22,025 bases of DNA, taken from positions 1 to 22,025 of the IMG/VR virus record IMGVR_UViG_3300037151_000035, one strand, 5' to 3'. Positions 6,781-22,025 of the stretch are shown here, in pieces. How positions within the stretch are numbered: the first letter of the stretch is position 1; every line of letters begins with the position of its first letter. Origin of the DNA: a virus. The position numbers and the translations under genes are program-made. The notes below the pieces were generated by a model. That model ran no database searches. It was given only the letters and a program-made list of their open reading frames with translations, and was not told the DNA's origin.

Positions 6781-9700
6781 CGGCCGTACAGCCAGGCGAT
6801 CGTGCCGCCGGATGAGTACGACGACGGGGTGAACGACCCTGGCATCGAGGTGATCGCCGTCTTGTAGAGGTTCGGGTAGAGTCCGCTGATCGCCGCCGAC
6901 CACCCGTAGGACGTGAAGCCGACCGTTACAGGGACGGTGCCGGTAAAGTCCGGCAGGATCGCGAGGTAGTAGTTCGTCCCCGCCGTGATCGCCACGCCGG
7001 AGCCGAGGGTGCCCTCGCAGGTGCCCGCCGACTCCATCGCGGTGGCCATGCTGCCGGTGATCCCGAGGTACGCGCCACCCGAGGCAGGGTAGATCGCCAT
7101 CGCGTTGACGTTCGCGCCGGGCGTGACGCCGCCCGTCTTCAGCCAGGTGCCGAGGACCGTGATCGTCTTGCTGATCGTCGCGGTAGCCAGGAAGCACTGG
7201 ATCTGGTTGGCGGTCAGGCTGACGTTGGAGACGTTGACCTGCGTCAGCGGGATAGTGGCAATCGCGTAGCCAAGCCCGGCGATCGACAGTCCGCCCGCCG
7301 ATCCGTCGGGGATCTGCCCGAACGCGGCCGAGTCGGTCGATACCGAGCCGAACAGCAGCCCGGTCAGCTTGAAGCCGGCCATGGCCACGCTCGCGGCGGG
7401 GGACGGCAACTCGTCCAGGGTCGGGTACGAGCCGAACGCGGGCAGCGCGCCCGCGCCTCCGGAGAGCAGCGGCTGGCCGCTCGAGCCGGTCCCGATCTGG
7501 GTGACCGCGGTGCCGCCGGAGTTGGCTGCCAGAAGCTCGTAGCCCGTCAGGCCGCTGCGGCCCAGTCCGCCGCTGGCCGTGGCCAGGGGCGACGACGAGC
7601 TCGGCCCGGTCGCCGCGAACGTGATGCTGCTGGTCCCGAGCGTGAAGGTGCCGCTGAACGGCTGCACGCCGAACCACTGGCCGCCGTTGACGGTGCCGTA
7701 GGCCGCGTAGCAGACGGTGCCGGGCACCTGTGCGGCGGTGGCCATGCCGCCGTAGCGGGCCAGCCCGTAGGACAGGCTGCCCGACCCGGGCGACACCACC
7801 GTGTAGATGCCGTTGTACGGGGCGTTGGCGCCGGTCTCGTTCTGCACCAGGAGCAGGTTGCCGGGCGCGAGCGTCACGCCGTCGATGGTCCCGAGCGCGG
7901 TATCCGCCGGCCCGGTGATGGTGCCGAGGCTGTAGGTGTAGCCGCCCGGCAGGGTGGTGGTCGTGGCGGCGGTCACCGAGAGGCTGACCTGCACGACGGG
8001 GCTGGCGGACGTCGCGCCCGCGGCGACCAGGCCGTTGGGCACGCTCAGCGCGGTGACGCCGAGGCCGCCCTGGCCGACGGGCAGCGGCAGGGCAACGCTG
8101 GCCCCGGTGCCGTACCAGGTGGTGCCCCCGTTGGCCGTCTGGAGGATAACGACGGTCACGGCCGACGCGACCTGGGTGATGACCGGCGGCGACCCGGACA
8201 GCCAGGTGATGGCCGGCCACGCCGACGACGGGAAGGCCCACGGGCCGCCGCTGGCAGGCTGGGCGATGAGCAGCGTGACCGTCTGCGCCACGGCGGCGGT
8301 CGCCCCCGAGAGCGTCAGCCCCGTCACGGCGGCGCTGAGGGTGATGTTCCACGTCCCGGCCGTGTTCACCGTGATCGCGGGAGTCGCCCCGGCGGTCGCC
8401 AGGGTGCCGATGGCCGCGCCGTAGCGGATGTCCGCCTGGCCGAGCGGCAGGTCATCGCCGAGGACGTACCAGATGCCCGGCGCGTGGGCGTACTGGAGCA
8501 TGACGCCCTGGCTGAGCACTGCCAGCGTGATCGACGTCGAGCCGCCAGCCTTGTTGAACACGTCGGTCCCGCTCGGGTTCCGGACGATGGTGACGGTGTT
8601 GTAGGTGCTGCCCGAGCTTCCCTGCGCGATCATCTTCAGCGCGATCTGCGTCTCGTCGGCCGGGGCGTTGGGAAGCGTGACCGTGAAAGCGCCGGAGGTC
8701 GTGTCACAGGGGTAGAACGTCGCGACCGCGGCCGGCCCGGGGTCGGCGGTGATGACCGCGCTGGCCGTCAGCGCCGAGGCGCCGCCGGGGGGTGCCTCCC
8801 AGTTCCCGTCCGCGCGCAGGAAGTTGGTAGTTCCGCCGCCCAGCTCGATCGCGCCCTGGGCGCTCGTGGTCGCCGCCGGGAGGTCCGCGGCCTGGATGGC
8901 GGACAGCTGCATGTTGCTGCCGGTGCCGCGCAGGTACTCGCCGCTGGTGGTGCCGCCCGCGAGGTTGTTCAGCGCCGTCTGCCGCGTAGCCAGGTCGGAC
9001 AGGTTATTGGCGGGCTCCAGGAACGCCGAGGATGCCTGCGTGGCTGCCGTCCCGAGCCCCAGGTTCGTCCTGGCCGCGCTGGCGGACGCGAGGTCGCTGA
9101 GATTGTTGGCGGTCTGCGCCACGGCGGATGACGCCAGCGTGGCCGCGCTGCCGAGCCCCAGGTTCGTTCGCGCCGTCGGCGCGCTCGCCAGGTCGGACAG
9201 GTTGCTGGCCCGCTGCGCGCTGGCCGCCTCCGCATTGGCCTGCGCGGTGGCGGCGGCACCCGAGGCGTCTGCCCCGACCTCTGCGGCGGTGAGGACGACG
9301 GCACCGGTCTGCGTGTTGACGCTGGAGACCCCGCCGCCGCTCCCGTCCGCCGCAGCCGTGATCCGGCCGTCCGCCTCCACGGTGATGTTCGCCGCGGTAT
9401 AGCTGCCCGGCGTGACGGCGGTCGACGGCAGGACCGTCCCCGAGCCGAGCGTCTTGTTGGTCAGCGTCTGCGTGTCGGCGGTGCCGACGACCGACGACCC
9501 GCTGGCCAGGCCGTGGACCTGCTGGTTGCCGGTGCCCGACTCGCCCGATACGTAGCTCTGGATGTGACCCTGGACGTCGTTGAAGTCCTGGCCGCTCACG
9601 CCGTGCACGACGACCGCGCCGATGGCGTGCGCCTGCGCCGTCGTGCCGTCGATGCCGCGCGTGCAGGGCAGCGTGTAAGGCCCGCTCCCGGTCGGCGCGC

Positions 9701-12091: not shown

Positions 12092-15000
12092 TCAGCGGCC
12101 GGGCAGGTTCGGGTAGGTCGTCGGGTTGCGCTTGGCCTTCTGCATGGCGAATTTCTGGCTGACCCGGGCCAGCGTCTGGCCGGAGAGGTTGATGACGATG
12201 TCCGCGTGCAGGTCGCCCGGCGATGACCAGCCGGCGCCCTGCGGGATGACCGGCGCCCGCATCCGGTCGTCATGCGGCGGCCGGTAGCGCTCGTGCGGGG
12301 CCGTGACGTGAGCGCCACCGGATCCGCCGGACGTCCCGGTGCCGGTGCCGAGCTCGGCGTCGATCTTCTTCACGGCGGCCTTGATGGCCGACCCGGAGTC
12401 ACCCAGCGCGGTCATGATCGACACCACGAGGGACTTAGCGATGGACGCCATCTCCGAGTCGACGCCCTTGAGCGAGTCCTTCAGCCCGGCGCCCAGCGCC
12501 TTGCCGATCTGGGAGGCATTCTCGTAAGCCGCGTTGGCCCCGGTCACGCCCAGCCTGGACGACGCCACGCCGATCTCGTCCTGGAGCTTCGCGATGGCCT
12601 TCACGCCGGACGCGCCCTCGCCGAGGATCTGCTGCGCCACGGGCAGCCCCCCGGACACCCCGGCGCCGAGAAGCTGCTGGATGCCTTCCTTGTCCAGCCC
12701 TTCCTTCTTCAGCCTGATGATGTCCTGGCGGAACTCGCGGATCTGGCCGAGTTGCTGCTTCAGGCCCTGCTGGATGCTGGTGTACGGGTTCTGCGACGTG
12801 CCCGCCGCGCCCTCGGCCTGGTCGGCGATCTGGAGGCCTGCGTTGGTGTTCCCCGCGATGCCGATGATGCTGGCCCCGGAGATCGCGGCGGAGGTCACCG
12901 ACTTGGCCAGCGCGTCGGCCGCGGTGATCTGGCTGACCAGCTTCGCCCGCTGCTGGGCGAGGCTCATCAGCTTCCTGTTGTCGGTGTCGAGCAGCTGCGT
13001 CAGCGCCGACCCGCGCAGGGCCTGCGCCGGGTTCCACGATTCCGTTAGCGCCTTCAGGTCGGTGCGGAGCTTCGCGGTGGCGCTCGTGATATCGCTATCA
13101 GTGAACGGGCGGGTTCCGAGCACGTCATCCATGGCCGCCTGGACGGCCGCCTTGCCGCCCATCAGGCCCAGGATCAGGCCGGCGTCGGTGTCCTCGCCGA
13201 CCTTCTGGGCCTTCCTGGACGGCGAGTGCGTCTCCAGCGCGTCCCGCATGGAGGACTCGACGGCACTGGCCACGGACGCAGCCGCAGCCGCGGCAGCGCC
13301 CTCGCCGCCCCGGATGCCGGCCGCGAGGCCCTGGTCGGCCTCCTCGCCGATCGTGCGGAACTCCCCGGGCAGCGGGGCCAGGGCAGCCTGCGCCTGCGAC
13401 ACCAGCGGGCGGATCGCGGCCACGGCCTGCGCGACCCCGGACCGGAACTCCGACGCCAGGGCCGACATGCCGGACGCGGCAGCCGATCGGGCCGCCTGCA
13501 TGGCCTGGCTCACGCCCGCCCGGACGCCGCCGGTCAGCGGGCCGAGCGCGGCGATCGACCGGGCGTCCATGTCCCGGAACGCCGAGGCGACTTGCGAGGA
13601 ACCGGACCGGGCGGCCGACTCCGCGGACTGCATCGCCTTCGCCACGGAGTCCTTAGCCGCGGCCTCGACCTGCGAGGACGACGACTTCACGGCCCTGGAC
13701 AGATCCTGGCCGTACGCCTTCCCGGCATCGTCGCCGGCCTTCGAGGCGGCGTCCTTCCCGCCGTCCAGCGACTTCACGGCCTTATCGGCGGCCGACTTCG
13801 CGTCCCCGGACGCCGAGTCGGTACCCTTGCGGAGCCCGGCACCGTACTGCTTCCCGGCGGTCTCCCCGGCCGCCGTAGCACCCTTCCCGGCATTGGCGAA
13901 CAGGCTCCGGGCGCCCTCGGGGTTCCCGGAGGTCATGTTCTTCTGCATCGACTTCGACCAGCTGGTGATCGCGCCCTGCATCCCGCTGGCCGAATCGCTG
14001 CTGGCGAGATCTTTCTTCGCGGAGTTGAAGAACCGCATCACCGGGGAGTCGGAGCCGATGCCCATCTGCCCCAGCGCCTGCTCGGCCGCGCTCTTCAGCC
14101 GGCTGGTGCTCCCGGAGTTGTGAAACAGCGAGCCGTACGAGCCGAGCGCCCTGGAGATGTCACCGCCGGCGGCTGACAGGTTCCCGAGGTTGACCTTCTC
14201 CAGCGACTGGAAGTCATTGACCATCGTGGTCAGGTCGCCGCCGTGGGTGCCGACGGCGTCCATCACCGTCGACAGGCCCTGCATGCTGCCCTTGAGCGCT
14301 GACATCGCCGCCGGGGTGACGCCCTTGACGAGGCTGCCCATGCTGGCGATGAACTGGCTGCTGCCCTTCGCCATGGCGGGGGAGACCAGGGCGCTGGCCA
14401 CGCCGCCGAGCGACGACATGAGGCTGTGCACCGAGCTGGCGACCTCGGGCATGTCCTTGGTGATGTTGCTGATGAACGTGGTCCCGGCCGGCGACTTGAT
14501 GTTCTTCCCGATGTCACGGAACATGCTGGAGATGACCGGCGCGGCGCCCTTGGCCATGGCCTCCAGCGACGGGATCGCCGCCGTGGCGTCCCTGACCCCG
14601 GACGTTATGTCCTTGAAGGCGTCCTGCTGGATGCCCGAGGTCTTGCTGGCCCGGCTGAACTCGGACGACAGGTCGTGGATCGCCGCCACGGCGGGCCGCA
14701 CGTCCGCCGGGACGCTGGCGTACGCAGCCTGCAGCTTCGCCAGGGCCGCCGCCTCGGCCGTGATGTTGTCCTTCGTCGGGTCGCGCTGCGCCACGCCCCT
14801 GGCAGTGCTGTAGGCCGTCCGGGCTGCCGAGACGGCAGACATGCCCTTCTCGACCTTGTCCAGCGCCGGGTAAGCCATGGCGCCGAAGGAGACGATCCCG
14901 GCGCCCGCGACCATCGCGGCAGGGGCGATCGACCCGACCAGCGCGATGAGGCCGGGGATCATGAGACTGGCCGGCGAGCCGCCCCCGGGCAGCTGCTCGA

Positions 15001-16312
15001 AGGCGTCGCCCATCTGGCCCGCGATCCCGACAAGGTTGCCGGCGGCACCGGAAGCCGCGGCGGCAACGCCGGCGAGTGCCCCCTCGCTGCCGGCTGCAGC
15101 AGCCTCGGTGTCGCCCAGCCCGGATGCGACGCCGCCGAGCGCCCCGCCCAGCGCCTCGGCCGCTGGCGCCGCATCGTCCATCGAGGCGGCAAGACCGGAG
15201 ATCCCGGCCTGCTGGTCATAGGCGCCCATGCCCGCAGCCATCCCGGGAACGGTGCGCTCCATCATGGAGCTGGCCATTTCCTCCGGCGTGGACTGCACCG
15301 ACGGGCCGGCCGAGTAGGCACCCCCGGCCAGCGACTCCCCGGCCCGCGCCAGGTCCTGCTCGGCCTCAGCGGCGCCCGCAGCAGCTTCCTTCCGCTCCTT
15401 CAGCCCTGCGACGTAGGCGTCATTGACCGCGGTGAAGCTGGACCCTGACGCCGGGCCCACGGACCAGGCGCCCCCCCCGAAGGACGTCACGCCGGCGGCG
15501 TCCGTCTCAGCGGCGGCAGCGGCGGCGCCGCGCAGCTCGTCCTTCAGCGCCGCGGCGCTCGCCGCGTCAGCGTCCAGCCCGGCGGCCATGCTGCCGACGC
15601 CGGCACCCGCCGACGTCACGTCATCAGCGGCTGCCGCGTCGCCGCGAAGCGCAGTGCCGAGCGACTCGGCGGCGGAGGTGCCCGCGTCCAGCCCGGCGGC
15701 GAGGCTGTCGACCGCCGCGCCGGACTCGCCCAGCTCGTGAGCCCCGTCGGCCGCCCCGGCCAGGGCGCCCCCGAGCGAGTCGGCCGACGAGGTCGACAGG
15801 TCCAGCGCCCCGGCCAGGTCATCGACCGCCGCGCCGGACTCGCCCAGCGCCGCGGCGGCACTGGCGTCATCGCGCAGGGCGTCGCCCAGGGACTCGGCGG
15901 CGCCCGTCCCGGACTCCAGTCCGGCGGCGACGGTGCCGATGCCAGCGCCTGCCGCGCTCAGCCCCGCGGCAGCGGTCGTGTCGCTGCGAAGCGCCTCGCC
16001 CAGCCCCTCGCCGGCGGCTGTCCCGGCGTCCAGCGCGCCGGCCAGGTCATCAACGCTGCCGCCCGAGGACCCCAGGCTCCCGGCGGCCTCGGCGTCCTGC
16101 CGCAGCACGTTGCCGAGCGGCTCGCCCGCGGCCTCGGCGTTCTCCAGGCTCTCGGTCAGGTCATCGACGTCAGCGGCAGCCGAGCTGACCTCGGCGGCGG
16201 CACCGGGAATCTTCTCCAGTGCCTCCGCTAGCCGGTTCGCCTCGTCTGCCGCCTCGCCGAGGGCTTCCGCGCCCTCGACGGTGATAGTGACGTTCTCCTC
16301 AACGTCACCCAC
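12092..16312 (-). CDS. tape measure protein (1406 aa)
   Basis: This protein sets tail length and is threaded inside the tail tube before being released during DNA ejection. It is the longest gene, Ala-rich and mostly helical, and directly follows the chaperone/gp10-like block, as expected. Residues 49-275 are six tandem 38-residue repeats (consensus VDDLAGALDAGTAAAESLG). Around 447-482 there is a hydrophobic stretch (SLMIPGLIALVGSIAPAAM), which in this family may insert in the host membrane. Further Ala/Ser repeats lie at about 870-1000. Near 1025-1055 is the typical tape measure motif HSPSRKAQKVGEDTDAGL. The start is GTG with only a weak GGTGAG upstream. At about 0.15 nm per residue the tail would be near 210 nm. 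No peptidoglycan hydrolase domain is evident. Confidence 0.93.
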   Translation of the reverse strand: MGDVEENVTITVEGAEALGEAADEANRLAEALEKIPGAAAEVSSAAADVDDLTESLENAEAAGEPLGNVLRQDAEAAGSLGSSGGSVDDLAGALDAGTAAGEGLGEALRSDTTAAAGLSAAGAGIGTVAAGLESGTGAAESLGDALRDDASAAAALGESGAAVDDLAGALDLSTSSADSLGGALAGAADGAHELGESGAAVDSLAAGLDAGTSAAESLGTALRGDAAAADDVTSAGAGVGSMAAGLDADAASAAALKDELRGAAAAAAETDAAGVTSFGGGAWSVGPASGSSFTAVNDAYVAGLKERKEAAAGAAEAEQDLARAGESLAGGAYSAGPSVQSTPEEMASSMMERTVPGMAAGMGAYDQQAGISGLAASMDDAAPAAEALGGALGGVASGLGDTEAAAAGSEGALAGVAAAASGAAGNLVGIAGQMGDAFEQLPGGGSPASLMIPGLIALVGSIAPAAMVAGAGIVSFGAMAYPALDKVEKGMSAVSAARTAYSTARGVAQRDPTKDNITAEAAALAKLQAAYASVPADVRPAVAAIHDLSSEFSRASKTSGIQQDAFKDITSGVRDATAAIPSLEAMAKGAAPVISSMFRDIGKNIKSPAGTTFISNITKDMPEVASSVHSLMSSLGGVASALVSPAMAKGSSQFIASMGSLVKGVTPAAMSALKGSMQGLSTVMDAVGTHGGDLTTMVNDFQSLEKVNLGNLSAAGGDISRALGSYGSLFHNSGSTSRLKSAAEQALGQMGIGSDSPVMRFFNSAKKDLASSDSASGMQGAITSWSKSMQKNMTSGNPEGARSLFANAGKGATAAGETAGKQYGAGLRKGTDSASGDAKSAADKAVKSLDGGKDAASKAGDDAGKAYGQDLSRAVKSSSSQVEAAAKDSVAKAMQSAESAARSGSSQVASAFRDMDARSIAALGPLTGGVRAGVSQAMQAARSAAASGMSALASEFRSGVAQAVAAIRPLVSQAQAALAPLPGEFRTIGEEADQGLAAGIRGGEGAAAAAAASVASAVESSMRDALETHSPSRKAQKVGEDTDAGLILGLMGGKAAVQAAMDDVLGTRPFTDSDITSATAKLRTDLKALTESWNPAQALRGSALTQLLDTDNRKLMSLAQQRAKLVSQITAADALAKSVTSAAISGASIIGIAGNTNAGLQIADQAEGAAGTSQNPYTSIQQGLKQQLGQIREFRQDIIRLKKEGLDKEGIQQLLGAGVSGGLPVAQQILGEGASGVKAIAKLQDEIGVASSRLGVTGANAAYENASQIGKALGAGLKDSLKGVDSEMASIAKSLVVSIMTALGDSGSAIKAAVKKIDAELGTGTGTSGGSGGAHVTAPHERYRPPHDDRMRAPVIPQGAGWSSPGDLHADIVINLSGQTLARVSQKFAMQKAKRNPTTYPNLPGR
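15485..16168 (-). repeat. six tandem 114-bp (38-residue) repeats in the tape measure gene
   Basis: Translated units begin at residues 49, 87, 125, 163, 201 and 239 of the tape measure, each 38 residues without gaps (the last slightly degraded). Two units share at least 26 identical bases exactly 114 bases apart (around 15706 and 15820). Each unit is two short helices: (V/I)(D/G)xLAxxLDxGT followed by AESLGxALRxDAAAA, ending in a Gly/Ala turn. Confidence 0.85.
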
Positions 16313-16335: not shown

Positions 16336-16824
16336 TCACAGGCCGGAGTCGTGCAGGATCTTCTCGATGGCCTCGGTGCACGGCGCGTCCAGCCCGCCGC
16401 CCTCAGCCCAGTCGGCGGTGCGCTCCAGGTAGCGGCTGCCCTCCTGCGTGACCTCCAGCGGGAAGCCCCCGCCGGGCCAGTGCAGGGTGTGCTGGTGGAC
16501 GCCCCAGCGGCGCGGGAACGTCCCCGTAGGGCTGCCCGTCCACCCGCCGCGCGGCCGGTCGTGGGCGCGGATCGTGCCGCCGTCGTTGCGGAACGACGCG
16601 TACAGCGGAAGGTGCGTGGAGATGCTCGCCGTGGCCTGCGTCCCCGACCCGCTGACCCCGTTGACCCGCTCGGAGTCCCGGAGTGCCCCGGTCAGGACGG
16701 GCGTGTTCTCCTGGAACTGCGCCAGGAACGCCCTGGCCGCCCCGTCGGCGCAGTCGGTCGCGCCGTGGTCCGCGATGGCCTCCTGCGCCTGCCGGAGGGC
16801 TGCGGCGAAGCCGGCGAGGTCCAC
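16336..16824 (-). CDS. HK97 gp10-like tail/connector protein (162 aa)
   Basis: It resembles HK97 gp10-type proteins, which act in head-tail joining or tail completion. Visible features are an N-terminal helix (FAAALRQAQEAIADHG), then ENTPVLTGALRDSERV (the family's TPVxTGxLRxS element), THLPLYASFRNDGGTI (the YA element near a Gly loop) and a C-terminal helical end with RYLERTADW. The start is GTG at 16824, preceded by GGGGTGAG, three bases after the chaperone T-frame stop. Its place between the chaperones and the tape measure is unusual, because this family usually lies upstream of the tail tube gene. A tail-specific paralogue is therefore possible. Confidence 0.7.
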   Translation of the reverse strand: MDLAGFAAALRQAQEAIADHGATDCADGAARAFLAQFQENTPVLTGALRDSERVNGVSGSGTQATASISTHLPLYASFRNDGGTIRAHDRPRGGWTGSPTGTFPRRWGVHQHTLHWPGGGFPLEVTQEGSRYLERTADWAEGGGLDAPCTEAIEKILHDSGL

Positions 16825-16827
16825 GGC

Positions 16828-17043
16828 TCACCCCGGATCCGGCCTGCTCAGGTACCGGTAGGTGTAGTCGACCGCGTCGACCCACGCGCAGACGGCCAGG
16901 GGGAAGGCCCAGAACTCATCGGGGGTGAAGCCGCGCCGTGCCGCGTACTTGCACAGCATCGCCTCCTCGGCGGTCATCCCTCCGGGAGGATCGCTGACTC
17001 GTCCCTGGCACCACTGGAGGAGCCATCGGTAGTCGGAGCTGCT
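16828..17043 (-). CDS. tail assembly chaperone, T-frame (expressed by -1 frameshift from the G-frame)
   Basis: This is the second half of a lambda G/GT-type chaperone. Reading in the -1 frame from the slip site gives SDYRWLLQWCQGRVSDPPGG, then MTAEEAMLCKYAARRG, FTPDEFWAFPLAVCAWVDAV and DYTYRYLSRPDPG to a TGA. There are no stops between the slip site and the only ATG (16977), and the residues before that ATG (DYRWLL, PPGG) look like genuine family sequence. The ATG overlaps the G-frame stop (ATGA), but its GGAGG lies only one base away, too close for good initiation. The fusion would be 127 + 71 = 198 aa. In the known family the GT product binds the tape measure and recruits tail tube subunits. 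Confidence 0.85.
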   Translation of the reverse strand, partial: SSSDYRWLLQWCQGRVSDPPGGMTAEEAMLCKYAARRGFTPDEFWAFPLAVCAWVDAVDYTYRYLSRPDPG

Positions 17044-17423
17044 TTTGGGCCAGCGCTCAGCAGTTCCGTGCCGGTCTCGTCGGCCAGCTTCTCCAGCGCC
17101 TTGACCAGGTCCAGCGGCGCGTCGTCGCCGCCGTCCAGGACCGCCCCGTCGTAGACGCCGCCGAGCGACCAGGCCGTGACGATGCGCTGGAGCACGACGT
17201 CGCGGCGCCTCGTGAGGACGTCGCGGGAGACGATGCGCAGGGCGGGCCGCTTCACCATGCTCACGCCATCGGGGGACACCTCGTAGGGGTCGCCGTCATC
17301 GCTGACCCGCAGGCCGTCTTTCAGGCCGTTCGCTGCGTCGTTGACCTCCTGCAGTGCCTTGCGGTCGCCTCCGGTCAGCCCATCGCGCACGTCGGCCCAC
17401 CATCCGGGCCCTTCTAGCCTCAT
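16974..17423 (-). CDS. tail assembly chaperone, G-frame (149 aa)
   Basis: This is the gpG-like chaperone that coats the tape measure during tail assembly. It begins MRLEGPGWWADVRDGLTGGD, has a central DVLTRRRDVVLQRIVTAWSL helix and PLDLVKALEKLADE, and ends in a Ser/Gly-rich tail. Position (between tail tube and tape measure), length and the downstream -1 frame all match the family. AAGGAGG lies six bases before the ATG. The slippery CCCAAAA lies at codons 126-127, so a fraction of ribosomes would continue into the T-frame. The short 22-residue unshifted end (AAPTTDGSSSGARDES...) is disorder-like, consistent with being just the non-shifted terminus. Confidence 0.88.
   Translation of the reverse strand: MRLEGPGWWADVRDGLTGGDRKALQEVNDAANGLKDGLRVSDDGDPYEVSPDGVSMVKRPALRIVSRDVLTRRRDVVLQRIVTAWSLGGVYDGAVLDGGDDAPLDLVKALEKLADETGTELLSAGPKAAPTTDGSSSGARDESAILPEG
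17043..17049 (-). promoter_or_regulatory. CCCAAAA programmed -1 ribosomal frameshift site
   Basis: On the minus strand the G-frame reads GGC CCA AAA GCA. The heptamer C CCA AAA fits X XXY YYZ exactly. After a one-base slip the reading continues AGC AGC TCC GAC TAC and remains open into the T-frame to the TGA at 16828. A GC-rich pairing (ATCC...GGAT) surrounds the G-frame stop about 55 bases downstream; whether it stimulates slipping is unknown. Confidence 0.88.
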
Positions 17424-17483: not shown

Positions 17484-17612
17484 GTGCGGAACACCGGGTC
17501 GGTCGTGGTGCTGAACCTGTTCCTCGGCTGGGCCGTGATCGGCTGGGTGGTCGCGCTGGCGATGGCCTGCCGGACGCGCGATGCCGTGCCGCAGTCGCCG
17601 GACTTGCCCTAG
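17484..17612 (+). CDS. superinfection-immunity-like membrane peptide (about 42 aa)
   Basis: A plus-strand frame in the gap between two tail genes encodes VRNTGSVVVLNLFLGWAVIG followed by WVVALAMACRTRDAVPQSPD. The core LNLFLGW..IGWVVAL is the hallmark of the superinfection immunity protein family (T4 Imm-like), which blocks entry of a second phage at the membrane. Almost every codon ends in G or C. The preceding codons (W R R K) also fit the family, but a TGA at 17448-17450 closes the frame and no ATG is present. GTG at 17484 is the first usable start and has a poor ribosome binding site. Family members usually have an additional N-terminal segment, so this may be a truncated remnant or use an unusual start. 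It overlaps the tail tube gene end by 4 bases. Confidence 0.5.
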   Translation: MRNTGSVVVLNLFLGWAVIGWVVALAMACRTRDAVPQSPDLP

Positions 17613-18865
17613 TAGGCCGCACAGGCGTTGATGAGGGTTATCTGAGCGACACCCCAGCCGCCGCTGTTCCCGGTGTCCGTCTGGTTCCCTACGAGGGTTC
17701 CGGACAGATCGTAACCAAACAGACCCTTCGTTACCTTAAGGGGCGCTTCGGTCACTGCCCCGTAAAGCGCTGTGACCGAGAAGCTGACCTCGGCCGCGCC
17801 GGTCAGCCCGTTGGTCGTGGTCCACGTCAGGGACGGCTGAGTGTTGTTAAGCAGGTAATTCAGGGCGCTCTCGTCCAGTGCGGGCAGGTACGACAGATTG
17901 AACGTACCGGTCAGGGGTCCGCGAGAGAACACGTATACGGCCTGCTGCCCGTCGATCGTCGGGATGGCCTCGACCTTGCGGGTGAAGGACATCTTCCAGC
18001 TGGCGATGTCGTTCGGCGAGCCCCCGCCGACCGCGGATGTGCCCCGCCAGGCGGGCATCGCGCGCACGCCGGACCAGGCCGGGACCACCTCGGCGGCGAG
18101 CGCGCCCTGGGGCTGCGACATGCCCTTGCCGGTCCAGCTCAGGAACCCCATCGGGTCGCCGGAGAACTCCATGTCCGACATGCAGACATAGGGGAAGAGG
18201 TCGCCCCAATACCCGGCCGATCCGGCCACCTGGTTGCGATCTATGACGGAAAGGCTCGCAGGCTGGGACGAGACGTTGCCGGAGCTAGATGCCGGGTTCA
18301 GGGTGGAAAAGACGTGCGTAAACGGGGCCACGACGGTCGTGATGGCCGTGGCGCTCGCGTGGGCGAAGCGGACCGGGCTGGCCGTCACGATGCTCGTGGA
18401 CGTCGACCCGGTGCCCACCACGACGGTCTCGGCCGTGGTCGACGTCCCCACCTGGATCGCCGTCCCCGCAGTGAAGCTCGCGCCGCCCGATGCCACCGGA
18501 AGCGCCGACACCCCGGCCGCGACCGCGGCGCTCAGCGTCGACGTCGGCGTGCTCGCGGTCCCCGTGGAGGTCAGGTCACCGAACAGGCCCATGATAAACT
18601 GGCCGATAGTGTCGCCGTAGGTCGGCGACTCGGGGATGGACCACTCGGTCCACGACGCGCCCATCTGGAAGTCGTACGGGCCGGACGCCGCGCCGCGCAG
18701 CGCGTTGTCCGCGATGGGGTTGACCTTCGGGGCCGGGTCCCACGAGACCACCGGGACGGACACGTAGGTAGCCGGCTCGACGCCGAACCCGGCCGCCTCG
18801 CGGCCCACGTTCAGCAGGCGAGTGGCCTCCGGGTAAATTAGGGTAGGAATGGACACGCCGGTCAT
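17609..18865 (-). CDS. major tail tube protein, paralogue A (418 aa)
   Basis: This is probably the main tail tube subunit, given its place directly upstream of the chaperone pair. The N-terminal part has PVVSWDPAPKVNPIADNALRG and GASWTEWSIPESPTYGD. Residues about 110-170 are a Thr/Ser/Ala-rich insertion (AGVSALPVASGG, TSTTAETVVVGTGS, SPVRFAHASATAI) resembling the adaptor segments of the fibres. The second half holds MEFSGDPMGFLSWTGKGMS, MSFTRKVEAIPTIDGQQA and the end AQITLINACAAY. Much of it aligns by eye with the 407-aa protein at 20034-21257. The ATG follows the TAA of the 126-aa gene with no gap and has GAGGA upstream. A stretch of lower G/C near the 3' end (about 17630-17770) is visible. 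Confidence 0.82.
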   Translation of the reverse strand: MTGVSIPTLIYPEATRLLNVGREAAGFGVEPATYVSVPVVSWDPAPKVNPIADNALRGAASGPYDFQMGASWTEWSIPESPTYGDTIGQFIMGLFGDLTSTGTASTPTSTLSAAVAAGVSALPVASGGASFTAGTAIQVGTSTTAETVVVGTGSTSTSIVTASPVRFAHASATAITTVVAPFTHVFSTLNPASSSGNVSSQPASLSVIDRNQVAGSAGYWGDLFPYVCMSDMEFSGDPMGFLSWTGKGMSQPQGALAAEVVPAWSGVRAMPAWRGTSAVGGGSPNDIASWKMSFTRKVEAIPTIDGQQAVYVFSRGPLTGTFNLSYLPALDESALNYLLNNTQPSLTWTTTNGLTGAAEVSFSVTALYGAVTEAPLKVTKGLFGYDLSGTLVGNQTDTGNSGGWGVAQITLINACAAY

Positions 18866-19246
18866 TTAGTCCTCGTCTTCCTGGCCAGCGGCCGGGGTGA
18901 TGGGCGTCACGGGCGGCGTGACGGGACCGGGGGGCGTGAGCGGGGGCGTCAGGGCCGGGCTGCCGTGGTCGCCGTCCGGCATCAGCCCGGCCCCGGCCGC
19001 CTCCGGGTCGCGGCGGTACATGTCCGCGCTCACTCCCGGCCACGGGGGCGGAACCTGCTCGCCGGCGGGAACCCAGCGGGCGTCCGGCGCCGGCCAGAAG
19101 CCCGGGGCGCCCTCGGGCTTCTCCTCGCCGCCGGCGCCGAACTCGCGGCGGTCGCCAGGCTCGACGGTGCCGATCACGTCCCCGGCGGCGTCACGCGTTT
19201 CCGTATACGAGCGGGGTACCTGGTCGGCGTAGGCGTACTCGGGCAT
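18866..19246 (-). CDS. small protein with Pro-rich tail, unknown function (126 aa)
   Basis: This gene is not recognised. Its N-terminal half is compact and charged (MPEYAYADQVPRSYTETRDA, GTVEPGDRREFGAGGEE, ARWVPAGEQVPPPWPGV). Residues from about 94 on are a Pro/Thr-rich tail (SPALTPPLTPPGPVTPPVTP) ending in an acidic QEDED. GGAGGTAAGCCC precedes the ATG, a strong ribosome binding site that fixes the start. The TAA abuts the ATG of tail tube A, so the two are co-translated. The Pro-rich end suggests an extended linker or binding segment. A tail or virion accessory role is inferred only from its place between the two tail-tube genes. Confidence 0.72.
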   Translation of the reverse strand: MPEYAYADQVPRSYTETRDAAGDVIGTVEPGDRREFGAGGEEKPEGAPGFWPAPDARWVPAGEQVPPPWPGVSADMYRRDPEAAGAGLMPDGDHGSPALTPPLTPPGPVTPPVTPITPAAGQEDED

Positions 19247-19312: not shown

Positions 19313-19488
19313 TGGGCGTGAAGAAGTGCGACGTCATCGAGGTCGGCAAGGACGGGCGGACCGGCCTGGTGCGCGTGACCGAGGTCGGGCCCGACCAGCA
19401 CGGAGGCAGCCGCAACCGTCACCGCGAGGGATGGACTGGGCGCTGGGGCGAAGACGCTAGGACTTCCCCGCCATCGTCATCCCCGTGA
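19312..19488 (+). CDS. small plus-strand protein, unknown function (58 aa)
   Basis: The frame begins MGVKKCDVIEVGKDGRTGLV and continues RVTEVGPDQHGGSRNRHREG to a Pro/Ser end. The first 29 codons all end in G or C, strong evidence of coding in this frame and strand. No Shine-Dalgarno precedes ATG 19312; instead TGATG couples it to the preceding eight-codon frame. Its last 32 bases overlap the end of the 123-aa minus-strand gene. The basic, Gly-rich tail may bind nucleic acid, but no family is recognised. It lies opposite the tail operon, so it is probably expressed separately. Confidence 0.5.
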   Translation: MGVKKCDVIEVGKDGRTGLVRVTEVGPDQHGGSRNRHREGWTGRWGEDARTSPPSSSP

Positions 19489-19828
19489 CCAGGAACGGGA
19501 ACGTGGCGGTCCGCGCCTCGCCGTCCACCACGAACCGGTCGGCGAACTCCGCCGGCGGCATCTTCTCGGGCAGGTGCAGCACAGGCGTGCCGTCTGCGTC
19601 GGCGTAGAGCGTGACCTCGGCCCAGATGATCCCCTCGGCCGAGAGGTGCGCGACTACAGAGCCGGACAGCACGGTCGTGACCGGGCCGTCCGTGTCGTAG
19701 ACGCCGACTTTCCAGCCGGCGATTGCGCGGACGTCCGCGATGTCGGCAGCGGGCCACTCGATGCCGATCTCCCCGGCGAACTCGGCGGGCATGCCGTCCG
19801 CGGCGGTGTCCTCGGCAAGGTCGGTCAC
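19457..19828 (-). CDS. tail-module protein of unknown function (123 aa)
   Basis: This gene is not recognised. The protein starts with an acidic segment (MTDLAEDTAADGMPAEF), then beta-type segments (WKVGVYDTDGPVTTVLSGSV, IIWAEVTLYADADGTPVLHL, TATFPFLVTGMTMAGKS). The GTG start has AGGAG about six bases upstream. The pattern of a short beta-rich domain with DxDGxPV loops resembles small virion-decorating or tail-completion domains, which is only an impression. It lies between the two tail-tube paralogues in the same direction and is flanked by two plus-strand mini-genes. A role in tail completion or as a tail terminator is possible, since no terminator is otherwise recognised here. Confidence 0.7.
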   Translation of the reverse strand: MTDLAEDTAADGMPAEFAGEIGIEWPAADIADVRAIAGWKVGVYDTDGPVTTVLSGSVVAHLSAEGIIWAEVTLYADADGTPVLHLPEKMPPAEFADRFVVDGEARTATFPFLVTGMTMAGKS

Positions 19829-19864: not shown

Positions 19865-20059
19865 ATGAGCGACGAGCGAGACGCCGAGAGCGTCAACGCC
19901 GATGGCCTGGACGGAGTAAGGAAGTCCCTGAGTCTGCTGACGGACGCGCTGCTCCGCGAGCGCCGGCGATGCCTGACACCATTCCCGCCGGAACCTGCCG
20001 ATGGCGTCTACCACTTCGCGCGGGCCGGGGATCTCAGTACGAGGCCGGCCAGTAGTTGA
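19865..20059 (+). CDS. small plus-strand protein, unknown function (64 aa)
   Basis: The product starts MSDERDAESVNADGLDGV, has a likely helix RKSLSLLTDALLRERRRCL and ends in a Pro-containing segment followed by ADGVYHFARAGDLS. The start at 19865 is supported by GGGAGGA within the duplicated block; an in-frame ATG at 19856 would add three residues. It occupies the gap between two minus-strand tail genes and overlaps the end of tail tube B by 26 bases. Codon usage is mostly but not wholly G/C-ending, weaker evidence than for its neighbours. A small charged helix-rich protein could be regulatory. No family is recognised. Confidence 0.45.
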   Translation: MSDERDAESVNADGLDGVRKSLSLLTDALLRERRRCLTPFPPEPADGVYHFARAGDLSTRPASS

Positions 20060-21257
20060 CCAGCGTGGCCGTGAACGCCGCGTCCCCGACCGGCTCAGCG
20101 AGCCCCGACAGCTTGAAGGAAGCTTTCAGGTAGGCATCATCCTGACCGGCCTCGCCGTCCCACCATCCGCTGCGCGGCATCGTCAGCGACAGGGAGCATC
20201 CCCCGGCGAGCACGGGCTGGGTCAGCACGTGGACCGCGGGCTCCTGGCTGGCTTCGGTGAACACGTCCATGTCGGACTGGTCCTCGAAGATCGCCGTGTA
20301 CGCGCCGTCCGCCGTGAGCGCGCCGGGCCAGATGCCGAGCGGCGCCTGCGACCCGTTGACGCAGGGCACGACGCCGAGCTTCCGCGAGAGCATCAGGTCC
20401 ATCGCCAGCCCCCGCGTGGACGGCAGCGCCACGGTGATGCCGGACGGGTCCGACAGCGGCCGGACGGCAGGCCCCGCCACCCCGTCCGCGAGCACGCCGC
20501 TCCCCTGCGTGATGCCCCACTGCCAGCCCTGCATGGGCTGCGCGGGCGTGGCGTCGTAGGCGAACGTCTCCTGCGTGGCTGGCGGCATGCCGGAGGCGGT
20601 GGCCTTGAGGCCGACGTAGCCCTCCTTGCTGATGCTGACCAGCAGCGAGCCGAAGACGCAGCCGGGCCAGCCGAGCGGGCCGGTGCCGTCGTCCATCGTC
20701 AGGCTGTAGCGCGGCCAGGAGAACGTCGGGCCGGCCTGCGACTGGGCGAATACGTGGGTGCTCCGGGACGCCGCGGCCTCGCCGGCGTCGTGAGCGAACC
20801 GCAGCGGCGTGGCCAGCGGAACGCTGTACGGACCTGGGCCGGTCGCTGCGCCTGCCTGCGCGTACTCCAGCGTGTCACCAGCGCCGATCATCAGCACGGC
20901 CCCCGCGGCAGGCTCCTCGCCGAGGGAGAGGGACTGCGCGCCCCCGGCCGCTGCGGACCGCAGCTGGGTGGTGACGCCGGGGGTGCAGGTGTCCGGGCCG
21001 ATGAGCGCCCGCAGGTACCAGCCAGCCAGGTCCGGGTAGCCGTCCGAGGGGATCGTCCACTCCGACCACGCCGGGCCCTGCTGGAGGTCCTGCTCGGTGC
21101 TGTCGGAGCCGCGGAGTGCCCGGTCGCGGAGAGGGGTGATGCGCTGGCGGTAGCGCGTGCCCCGGCCGTAGGTCACGGTGAACGCGGGAGGCTCGTAGAC
21201 GCCGGGGACCGTCTCGGCGGCGATGCCGAGCTTCGCCATGCGCGAGAGAACCGACAC
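20034..21257 (-). CDS. tail-tube-like protein, paralogue B (407 aa)
   Basis: This is a second tail-tube-type protein and the first gene of the minus-strand run. Blocks shared with paralogue A, in the same order, are LRGSDSTEQDLQQGPAWSEW, TPLRFAHDAGEA followed by STHVFAQ, then SISKEGYVGLKATASGMPPA, LSRKLGVVPCVNGSQAP with PGALT, and a C-terminal TLVNYWPASY. The start is GTG at 21257 with GCGGAGG upstream; an internal ATG (residue 7) is the alternative. It could form part of the tube, for example a distinct segment near the head or tip, or a tube-like adaptor. Which of A and B is the bulk subunit cannot be decided from sequence, but A lies next to the chaperones. Confidence 0.78.
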   Translation of the reverse strand: MSVLSRMAKLGIAAETVPGVYEPPAFTVTYGRGTRYRQRITPLRDRALRGSDSTEQDLQQGPAWSEWTIPSDGYPDLAGWYLRALIGPDTCTPGVTTQLRSAAAGGAQSLSLGEEPAAGAVLMIGAGDTLEYAQAGAATGPGPYSVPLATPLRFAHDAGEAAASRSTHVFAQSQAGPTFSWPRYSLTMDDGTGPLGWPGCVFGSLLVSISKEGYVGLKATASGMPPATQETFAYDATPAQPMQGWQWGITQGSGVLADGVAGPAVRPLSDPSGITVALPSTRGLAMDLMLSRKLGVVPCVNGSQAPLGIWPGALTADGAYTAIFEDQSDMDVFTEASQEPAVHVLTQPVLAGGCSLSLTMPRSGWWDGEAGQDDAYLKASFKLSGLAEPVGDAAFTATLVNYWPASY

Positions 21258-21351: not shown

Positions 21352-21458
21352 GCCGCGCCGGGCGGTGCGCGCGGCGGCGGATCCGCCGGGCCGGGTGCTG
21401 GCTCCTGCCGTTCCTGGCCGTACTGGCAGCTGCGGGGGTGCTGGCGCTGTGGCCGTGA
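21348..21458 (+). CDS. 36-residue single-span membrane peptide
   Basis: The frame starts MSRAGRCARRRIRRAG, strongly basic, followed by a single hydrophobic span CWLLPFLAVLAAAGVLALW and one final Pro. By the positive-inside rule the N-terminus should stay in the cytoplasm. It overlaps the preceding frame by ATGA and the following one by GTGA, a coupled three-frame run. It is too short to place in a family. Small membrane peptides of this type in phages can be holin-like or exclusion factors; this is inference. Confidence 0.45.
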   Translation: MSRAGRCARRRIRRAGCWLLPFLAVLAAAGVLALWP

Positions 21459-21616
21459 GCGATGAGGCCGACTACCTCAAGGTGCTCTACGACCTGAGCG
21501 CGCCCTGGGTCAGGCTGCGGCTCATCCGCGTGACGGACCCGGCCGTCAACCCGCGCCATCTCTGGTCGGAGGCTGAGGCAGCGGATTATCAGGCGCTGAT
21601 GGATCGGCTAGGCTGA
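21455..21616 (+). CDS. small acidic/helical protein, unknown function (53 aa)
   Basis: The product starts MSDEADYLKVLYDLSAPWVR and continues LRLIRVTDPAVNPRHLWSEA followed by ADYQALMDRLG. It looks like a compact three-helix protein. The GTG start overlaps the stop of the membrane peptide (GTGA). Codons are almost all G/C-ending in the first two thirds, so coding is well supported. It is co-transcribed with the membrane peptide and may be its partner. No family is recognised. Confidence 0.55.
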   Translation: MSDEADYLKVLYDLSAPWVRLRLIRVTDPAVNPRHLWSEAEAADYQALMDRLG

Positions 21617-21633
21617 CCCGCGAATAAGCGATG

Positions 21634-21663
21634 TTGACTATTGCTGCTTACTCCTGCTAGGGT
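21634..21663 (+). promoter_or_regulatory. sigma70-type promoter (TTGACT-18-TAGGGT)
   Basis: TTGACT at 21634-21639 and TAGGGT at 21658-21663 are separated by 18 bases, a good actinobacterial housekeeping-type promoter. It lies in a locally AT-richer patch in the 79-base gap before the gene at 21696. The transcript would have a leader of about 25 bases ending in AGGAGG. Confidence 0.65.
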
Positions 21664-21695
21664 TTCCTACATCCGAAACTCTACAGGAGGCCATC

Positions 21696-22025
21696 ATGAC
21701 CAGGGTCAACGTCTACGAGACTCTCCCCGAGGACGACTTCGGCTACGCGCCGCCGAAGCTCGCTGGCTGGTTCGACGTCGCCAAGGCTGAGCGCTGGACC
21801 GACGCAGACCACGACGGCAACGGCAGCGGCGGAACCGGGCGCGGGAAGGCCGTCATCCGCACCGCGCAGGGCAAGTGGGTGCTCCAGCACTGGAGCGCAT
21901 GGCAGCAGGACGAGGCCACCGGGTACGTCTACATCACCCCCGATGAGGCCCGCGAGTGGCTGCTGCGCAACCAGGAGGACCACGCCGCGGAAAAGTACTT
22001 CGGCGAGCTCGCGGAAGAAGAGGAC
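21696..22025 (+). CDS. actinobacterial small hypothetical protein (3' truncated by window edge)
   Basis: The frame runs 110 codons to the window end without a stop. It begins MTRVNVYETLPEDDFGYAPP, then GWFDVAKAERWTDADHDGNG, then the conserved-looking GKWVLQHWSAWQ and GYVYITPDEAREWLLRN, ending in an acidic stretch. The pattern of a short WVLxxWSxWQ strand followed by xxITPxEAxxWLLxN recalls a small family seen in actinobacterial genomes, plasmids and phages, with no known function. AGGAGG lies six bases before the ATG, behind its own promoter, so it is probably well expressed independently of the tail operon, for instance in the lysogenic or early state. Confidence 0.75.
   Translation, partial: MTRVNVYETLPEDDFGYAPPKLAGWFDVAKAERWTDADHDGNGSGGTGRGKAVIRTAQGKWVLQHWSAWQQDEATGYVYITPDEAREWLLRNQEDHAAEKYFGELAEEED

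Follow-up and report, generated by a model that had tools for sequence, protein, structure and literature searches.

Tail genes and tube proteins of the window

The window, which comprises the entire 22,025 nucleotides of soil phage DNA that were analysed, carries a series of tail genes on its minus strand, two of which encode related proteins resembling subunits of phage tail tubes. We refer to these proteins as A and B, to contigs containing both as A+B and to contigs containing one of them as A-only or B-only. Families of neighbouring genes are designated by the letter c and a number. The window contains the following features:

12092-16312, minus strand: tape measure protein of 1406 aa, matching phrog_1204 (3.3e-22) and other tape-measure families
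16336-16824, minus strand: HK97-gp10-like gene of the A lineage (PF04883, 1.1e-4; 55 bits with the A-only gp10 model, no B-only score listed)
16828-16959, minus strand: short open reading frame after the chaperone-type gene (ORF call)
16974-17423, minus strand: tail assembly chaperone-type gene of the A lineage (26 bits with the A-only model, no B-only score listed)
17609-18865, minus strand: A, 418 aa, tube protein of the lineage with a c3-c5/c10 neck, proposed main tube subunit
18866-19246, minus strand: c2, 126 aa, which travels with A (family found in 14/14 A+B and 15/32 A-only contigs)
19457-19828, minus strand: gene of 123 aa between B and c2 (cluster c22, shared with a gene of 140 aa at the corresponding position in contig L014)
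20034-21257, minus strand: B, 407 aa, GTG start, tube protein of the lineage with a c6-c7 neck, proposed coupling ring
21449-21616 and 21696-22025, plus strand: two opposite-strand reading frames between B and the contig end (ORF calls)

As described in the initial annotation, A is located beside the chaperone-type genes and B heads the minus-strand tail genes, with two genes encoding proteins of 123 and 126 aa between them. The product of 16974-17423 is assigned as a presumable tail assembly chaperone-type protein from its position, which also makes the short reading frame at 16828-16959 a possible frameshift partner. The neck genes of the window (presumably c6 and c7, described below) would fall past the end of the contig, and its assignment to the c6-c7 group is based on the placement of its B protein inside the clade formed by the B proteins of A+B phages.

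The initial annotation had further described A and B as a homologous pair sharing sequence blocks, and this relationship was confirmed. In BLASTP, both proteins are 36% identical over 143 aa (E 7e-15) in an alignment that includes the LRG..W(S/T)EW(S/T)IP, (S/T)P(L/V)RFAH and THVF blocks, with the weaker C-terminal blocks located outside. A profile-profile comparison of the A family (38 sequences) and the B family (13 sequences) covers 370 columns (E 1.5e-30, probability 99.8%) and reaches the C-terminal LxN motif, at a mean A/B identity of about 21% in the joint alignment. The similarity around RFAH and THVF resides partly in an inserted beta domain (residues 103-182 in A and 95-165 in B), which also matches tailspikes and other phage proteins (VIA-align). 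These blocks by themselves thus do not prove that A and B are paralogous tube proteins, which is instead proven by the remainder of the protein. The head-tail adaptor gp8 of phage Mufasa8 (L069 gene 8) is also weakly matched by the A profile (7e-7), and the inserted domain is perhaps a roaming decoration domain common to adaptor and tube.

The assignment of both proteins to tail tubes is corroborated by structure models obtained with AlphaFold2, which find the same solved tubes of the T5 pb6 type. The model of A has a pLDDT of 87.5 and that of B, generated from 13 sequences, a pLDDT of 60, corresponding to low confidence. The first matches common to both models are the SH-Ab15497 major tail protein, the P74-26 tube, pb6 of T5 and DT57C and chains of the T5 tail tip, which we take to include p140. 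In VIA, the A model aligns with a Z of 27.7 to 8xan_A and 8ed0_A and of 23.6 to 9iny_A over 293 residues, and the B model, at its pLDDT of 60, with a Z of 17.1 to 8ed0_A (268 residues) and 9iny_A (267 residues). Two tail-tube domains per chain with a pb6-like organization along the length are found in both models, for B again at a pLDDT of 60, and A and B are thus predicted to be double-domain tail-tube proteins with an inserted domain.

Among sequence families, B matches phrog_290 (2.2e-4), and neither A nor B of the window matches Pfam PF18906 (Phage_tube_2). This family is matched by 6 of the 38 A-family members (best 2.4e-14) and by the B-only relatives L142 and L198 (53.5 and 42.5 bits at a cut-off of 27). 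The A1 and A2 profiles gave no convincing match to PDB sequences, NCBIfam matched 0 of 9 proteins, and tblastn searches of 50,697 phage records with A and B of the window and with two proteins from B-only contigs returned either nothing or THSA-485A alone.

Two neck types in three classes of contigs

A and B were used in separate searches of IMG/VR, with genes of the relatives called by a simple ORF caller. In these searches, A was frequently found without B, and several contigs contained the pair. After collapse at 97%, we distinguished 14 A+B, 32 A-only and 62 B-only contigs, with seven 'A?' contigs, whose neck is not visible, and eight 'B?' contigs, whose tail end is not visible, left out of the classes. 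The search for other phages with the same pair, as suggested in the initial annotation, has in this way yielded 14 dereplicated contigs including the window.

Phages of these classes display two types of neck. Where A occurs alone, the neck genes are c3 (~315 aa) in combination with c5 or c10, and where B is present they are c6 (~220 aa) and c7 (~160 aa). By PHROGs, c6 is predicted to be a head-tail adaptor, with nine of ten members matching phrog_442. For c7, there was no match to PDB sequences and no convincing match to PHROGs, and hhalign detects a weak relationship to c5 (E 4.7e-4 over 78 columns, probability 32.5%). Given this weak profile link together with its size and position, we infer c7 to be a putative terminator. 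Between the neck genes of A+B and A-only phages, we also observed a gene of cluster c17 with a Thr/Lys-rich N-terminus (L016 6889-7497, L015 2451-2912, L031 6243-6800), whose copy in L016 has no Pfam match.

A is the sole tube protein in the 32 A-only contigs, a class defined by a match to c3, c5 or c10, so that its neck count holds partly by definition; independently of this definition, none of its members showed c6 or c7. In the 62 dereplicated B-only contigs, which were drawn from searches with c6 and c7 and whose c6/c7 counts therefore hold by construction, B is the sole tube protein. If B had been imported together with the c6-c7 neck, phages with c6, c7 and B but without A would be expected, and such phages were found in number in the c6 and c7 searches. 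In 13 listed B-only contigs, with a few insertions or missed gene calls, B has a chaperone-type gene of its own behind it, then in most cases a short ORF with a gp10-like gene, and finally the tape measure. The 14 A+B contigs contain c6 in 12, c7 in 13, c2 in 14 and A-type chaperone and gp10 genes in 13 cases each, and c3, c5, c10 or B-type chaperone and gp10 genes in none. In 13 of them, the order is a neck of the c6/c7 type, followed by B and then by A with tail genes of the A lineage.

Homologues of B were also identified in bacterial genomes. A first scan of genome contigs (A4) revealed no relative, and a scan with B-only proteins (A7) detected 15 prophage loci in 14 actinobacterial assemblies (L207-L221), eight from Streptomyces, four from Catenulispora, two from Kitasatospora and one from a Streptosporangiaceae MAG. 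All 15 loci contain capsid, c6, c7, B and B-type chaperone genes and none contains A; gp10 is of the B type in 14 loci and scores as A-type in L210. Like the A+B phages, these loci have genes of the c6, c7 and B types close to that of the capsid; unlike them, they are devoid of A and contain their own chaperone and gp10-like genes after B. In a set of genomic and viral loci found with B, which avoids the bias from construction with c6 and c7 yet overlaps with the B-only set in contigs, A is absent in 90 of 90 cases, and all 67 loci whose upstream sequence exceeds 3.5 kb contain genes of the c6 and c7 types and none an A-type neck.

Gene typing and phylogeny of A+B phages

The genes of A+B phages were assigned to either lineage with models trained on A-only and B-only contigs that did not include any A+B sequence. 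The adaptor, c7 and B are B-type, and A, the chaperone and gp10 A-type, in every A+B contig showing them, and c2 is of the A-lineage type in 12 of 14 contigs, with two lacking a score. Of 11 capsid proteins, 10 are B-type and that of L018 (the same contig as L012) is A-type. Among 12 tape measures compared, a set that does not include those of L083 and L024, nine best match the A type and three (L039, L021 and L191) the B type. In the window, the best match of the tape measure is that of the A-only contig L005, with 190 bits compared to 69 bits to B-only proteins. The tape measures of L021 and L039 also match A-type proteins in other parts and are thus mosaic, and the tail module of A+B phages is in consequence not purely A-type.

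A phylogenetic tree of tube proteins, from which A of L047 (207 aa) was left out and in which the B-only set was thinned from 62 to 31, separates A and B with a support of 100. The B proteins of A+B phages form a single clade on the B side (98, and 100/100 in a careful tree). Their A proteins are broken up by A-only L005, L020 and L025, and a single clade was rejected (AU p 3.8e-13). In the capsid tree, where some rows are fragments, A+B phages are mixed among the other groups with at least four changes on well-supported branches; trees of c6 and c7 show weak resolution. Heads thus move between groups, and the B that stands before an A always belongs to one clade, as would be expected if B had needed to adapt to A. 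B reads as open frame in all 14 A+B contigs, with dN/dS values of 0.34-0.61 that are below 1 in 7 of 7 pairs (some dS values being large), and dN/dS is also below 1 for A.

Judged by their sequences, the A+B phages are chimeras in which a module of neck and B has recombined with an A tail module. The initial annotation had proposed that the two proteins arose by duplication. As each of the two proteins serves as the only tube protein in a lineage of its own, duplication within this phage is not supported, and the two genes were instead joined by recombination.

Natural swaps between related phages

Comparison of closely related contigs illustrates the exchange. The DNA of L005 and L012 aligns over the capsid region (73%) and again from just before c2 into A (69%), whereas the unaligned middle holds c3-c5 without B in L005 and c6-c7-B in L012; the whole 73-kb contig of L005 has no B beside its A. 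Likewise, the A region of L025, whose neck is c3-c10 without B, shares 78% DNA identity with that of L185 over 1287 bp. Parts also reassort among the A+B phages themselves. A of the window groups with L003 and L017 (100/100) and its B with L013, L004 and L018 (99/97). An AU test rejected a tree of A constrained to the grouping of B (5.9e-35), and the A grouping (window with L003 and L017) forced on B gave a borderline p of 0.055 and was not rejected. Between L023 and L024, A is 90% and B 68% identical in DNA.

Small opposite-strand genes were observed at joints of the tail operon (c7/B, B/c2 and A/chaperone) in the window (21449-22025, plus strand), L014 and L016. In L014, where such genes are also found between c7 and B, they are located at 9146-9607 and 12557-13249, the latter with NUMOD4 and HNH_3 domains, and the joint gene of L016 (9228-9704) belongs to DUF6221. 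Endonuclease VII-like genes (L012 4013-4729, L161 9221-9628) and an HNH gene (L005 3634-4431) are inserted after a capsid or tube gene. Homing-type nucleases at the joints of the tail operon might promote the exchange of modules.

B as proposed coupling ring

From these sequence relationships, we assign the window to a chimeric siphophage and consider it fairly probable that its tube consists of A and that one or a few head-proximal rings of B couple a foreign neck to the tail. The tail module, consisting of c2, A, the chaperone, the gp10-like protein and most of the tape measure, originates from a lineage with A as its only tube protein, and the neck cassette, with the adaptor c6, the putative terminator c7 and B, from a lineage with B as its only tube protein. 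Starting at the tip, A would polymerise upward around the tape measure, assisted by the chaperones of its own lineage, and B, as one ring or a few, would close the head-proximal end of the A tube underneath c7, because c7 would fit B but not A. B might have been retained for its contact with A. With a terminator candidate from the B lineage and chaperones from the A lineage, a tube of A with B under c7 is the simplest assembly. Whether more generally a neck cassette that can be transferred brings along a tube protein of its own as coupling ring, and can so be exchanged onto tails whose tube protein is about 21% identical, we regard as an evenly balanced question.

The initial annotation had considered a tube of mixed composition or a role of B as tube-like adaptor or terminator. 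The former two are both still viable, with the adaptor favoured. B is unlikely to be the terminator since in 13 of 14 A+B contigs it is preceded by the separate putative terminator c7. As candidate for this role, B was rejected: a terminator is short, with a single tube-type domain at the end of the tube (T5 p142, 161 aa), whereas B is a protein of 407 aa with a double-domain tube match along its length, and c7 is the terminator candidate.

Two comparisons concern the contact and stoichiometry of A and B. Residues common to B and its A partners only are four in number, three of them within 8 residues; in a control that left out five distant A proteins, as did all residue tests, and in which some pairs overlap the tested pair, at least four were reached in 12 of 120 clade pairs, and mimicry of an interface between B and A is for that reason not claimed. 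Codon usage does not separate the copy numbers of A and B, with B above A in 12 of 14 contigs, which if anything is against a high-copy A.

In an unlikely mirror image of the proposed assembly, B would form most of the tube and A one or few rings at the tip, the place of p140 in T5. B is the sole tube protein of B-only phages, three of the 12 tape measures are closest to the B type, and the second tube-like protein of T5 sits at the tip (PMC10038345); the gene order taken by itself would also be compatible with a tube of B that has A close to its tip. However, wherever an A+B contig shows the chaperone and gp10-like genes, these are A-type, a B-type chaperone occurs in 0 of 14, and nine of the 12 tape measures are closest to the A type. 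Chaperones select the tube subunit, as in the case of lambda G/GT, which bears against a tube of B.

A tube in which A and B would co-polymerise, or which could be built from either of them, is quite unlikely. Although both proteins match double-domain tubes, retain the inserted domain and have dN/dS values below 1, free mixing would not predict that B is confined to phages with a c6-c7 neck and absent from near relatives with another neck, and an average A/B identity of only about 21% also argues against it. We think it very unlikely that B is a passenger that recombination left behind and that has no role in the virion: it would have been brought along with c6-c7 by a crossover immediately behind it, but its open frame in each of the 14 contigs, its own clade and its dN/dS in the seven pairs, some with large dS, speak for its maintenance. 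Finally, duplication of a tube gene in place followed by divergence is hardly credible, since despite the homology of A and B and the existence of such duplicates (gp17, gp19 and gp20 of phage DizzyRudy, 42-51% identical), B of A+B phages groups with B-only and A with A-only proteins at a support of 100 and the types of neck and chaperone split in the same way.

The proposed coupling by B bears on a general question, as phage genomes are mosaic although their heads, necks and tails have to be compatible. Related A tails with two kinds of neck, and a second tube protein with only one of these, provide a natural comparison in which the compatibility of modules becomes testable on named genes. 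If correct, B would be a compatibility device for the exchange of modules between head and tail, and a second 'major tail protein' in an annotation can be a coupling piece brought in by recombination rather than a duplicate.

Relationship to known systems

In the accessible parts of openly licensed literature on second or multiple tube proteins and on necks (including PMC11784142, PMC7302621 and PMC5513430), we found no description of a cassette of neck and tube. The phrases 'second' or 'additional tail tube protein' were not found in openly licensed papers, and 'two tail tube proteins' there refers to the tubular proteins A and B of a podophage.

Actinophages of clusters EL, DJ and others have two annotated major tail proteins (PMC11080557, PMC10652937) and, as also in the record of DizzyRudy, resemble the A+B phages in containing more than one tube gene per tail operon. 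Unlike A and B, gp17, gp19 and gp20 of DizzyRudy belong to one family (phrog_2645) and are duplicates within it, and they are not recognised by the A and B models. An origin of A and B as same-genome duplicates of this type was rejected, as they fall into separate clades with A-only and B-only phages. The A lineage has a counterpart in the isolated Arthrobacter phage Mufasa8, whose gp12 is an A-type tube protein (1.3e-42) and whose gp8 and gp9 correspond to c3 (3.3e-45) and c5 (4.6e-13) of the A-lineage neck; unlike the A+B phages, it has only one annotated major tail protein.

The nearest known analogue of B is p140 of T5, a tube-type protein with pb6 fold that lacks the Ig-like domain and forms one trimeric ring at the tail tip, where it connects the main tube to a further ring (PMC10038345). 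In both cases, the genome encodes an additional tube-type protein next to a distinct main tube protein, as observed for A and B within one tail operon in 14 contigs. Unlike p140, which is distal and read as a duplicate of pb6, B is encoded on the side of the neck and comes from another phage lineage, and it keeps its inserted domain (~95-165), whereas p140 is described there as devoid of the Ig-like decoration domain (PMC10038345). In T5, the terminator p142 (161 aa) is located directly on the main tube protein pb6 (PMC11784142), whereas A+B phages are proposed to place B between the terminator candidate and A.
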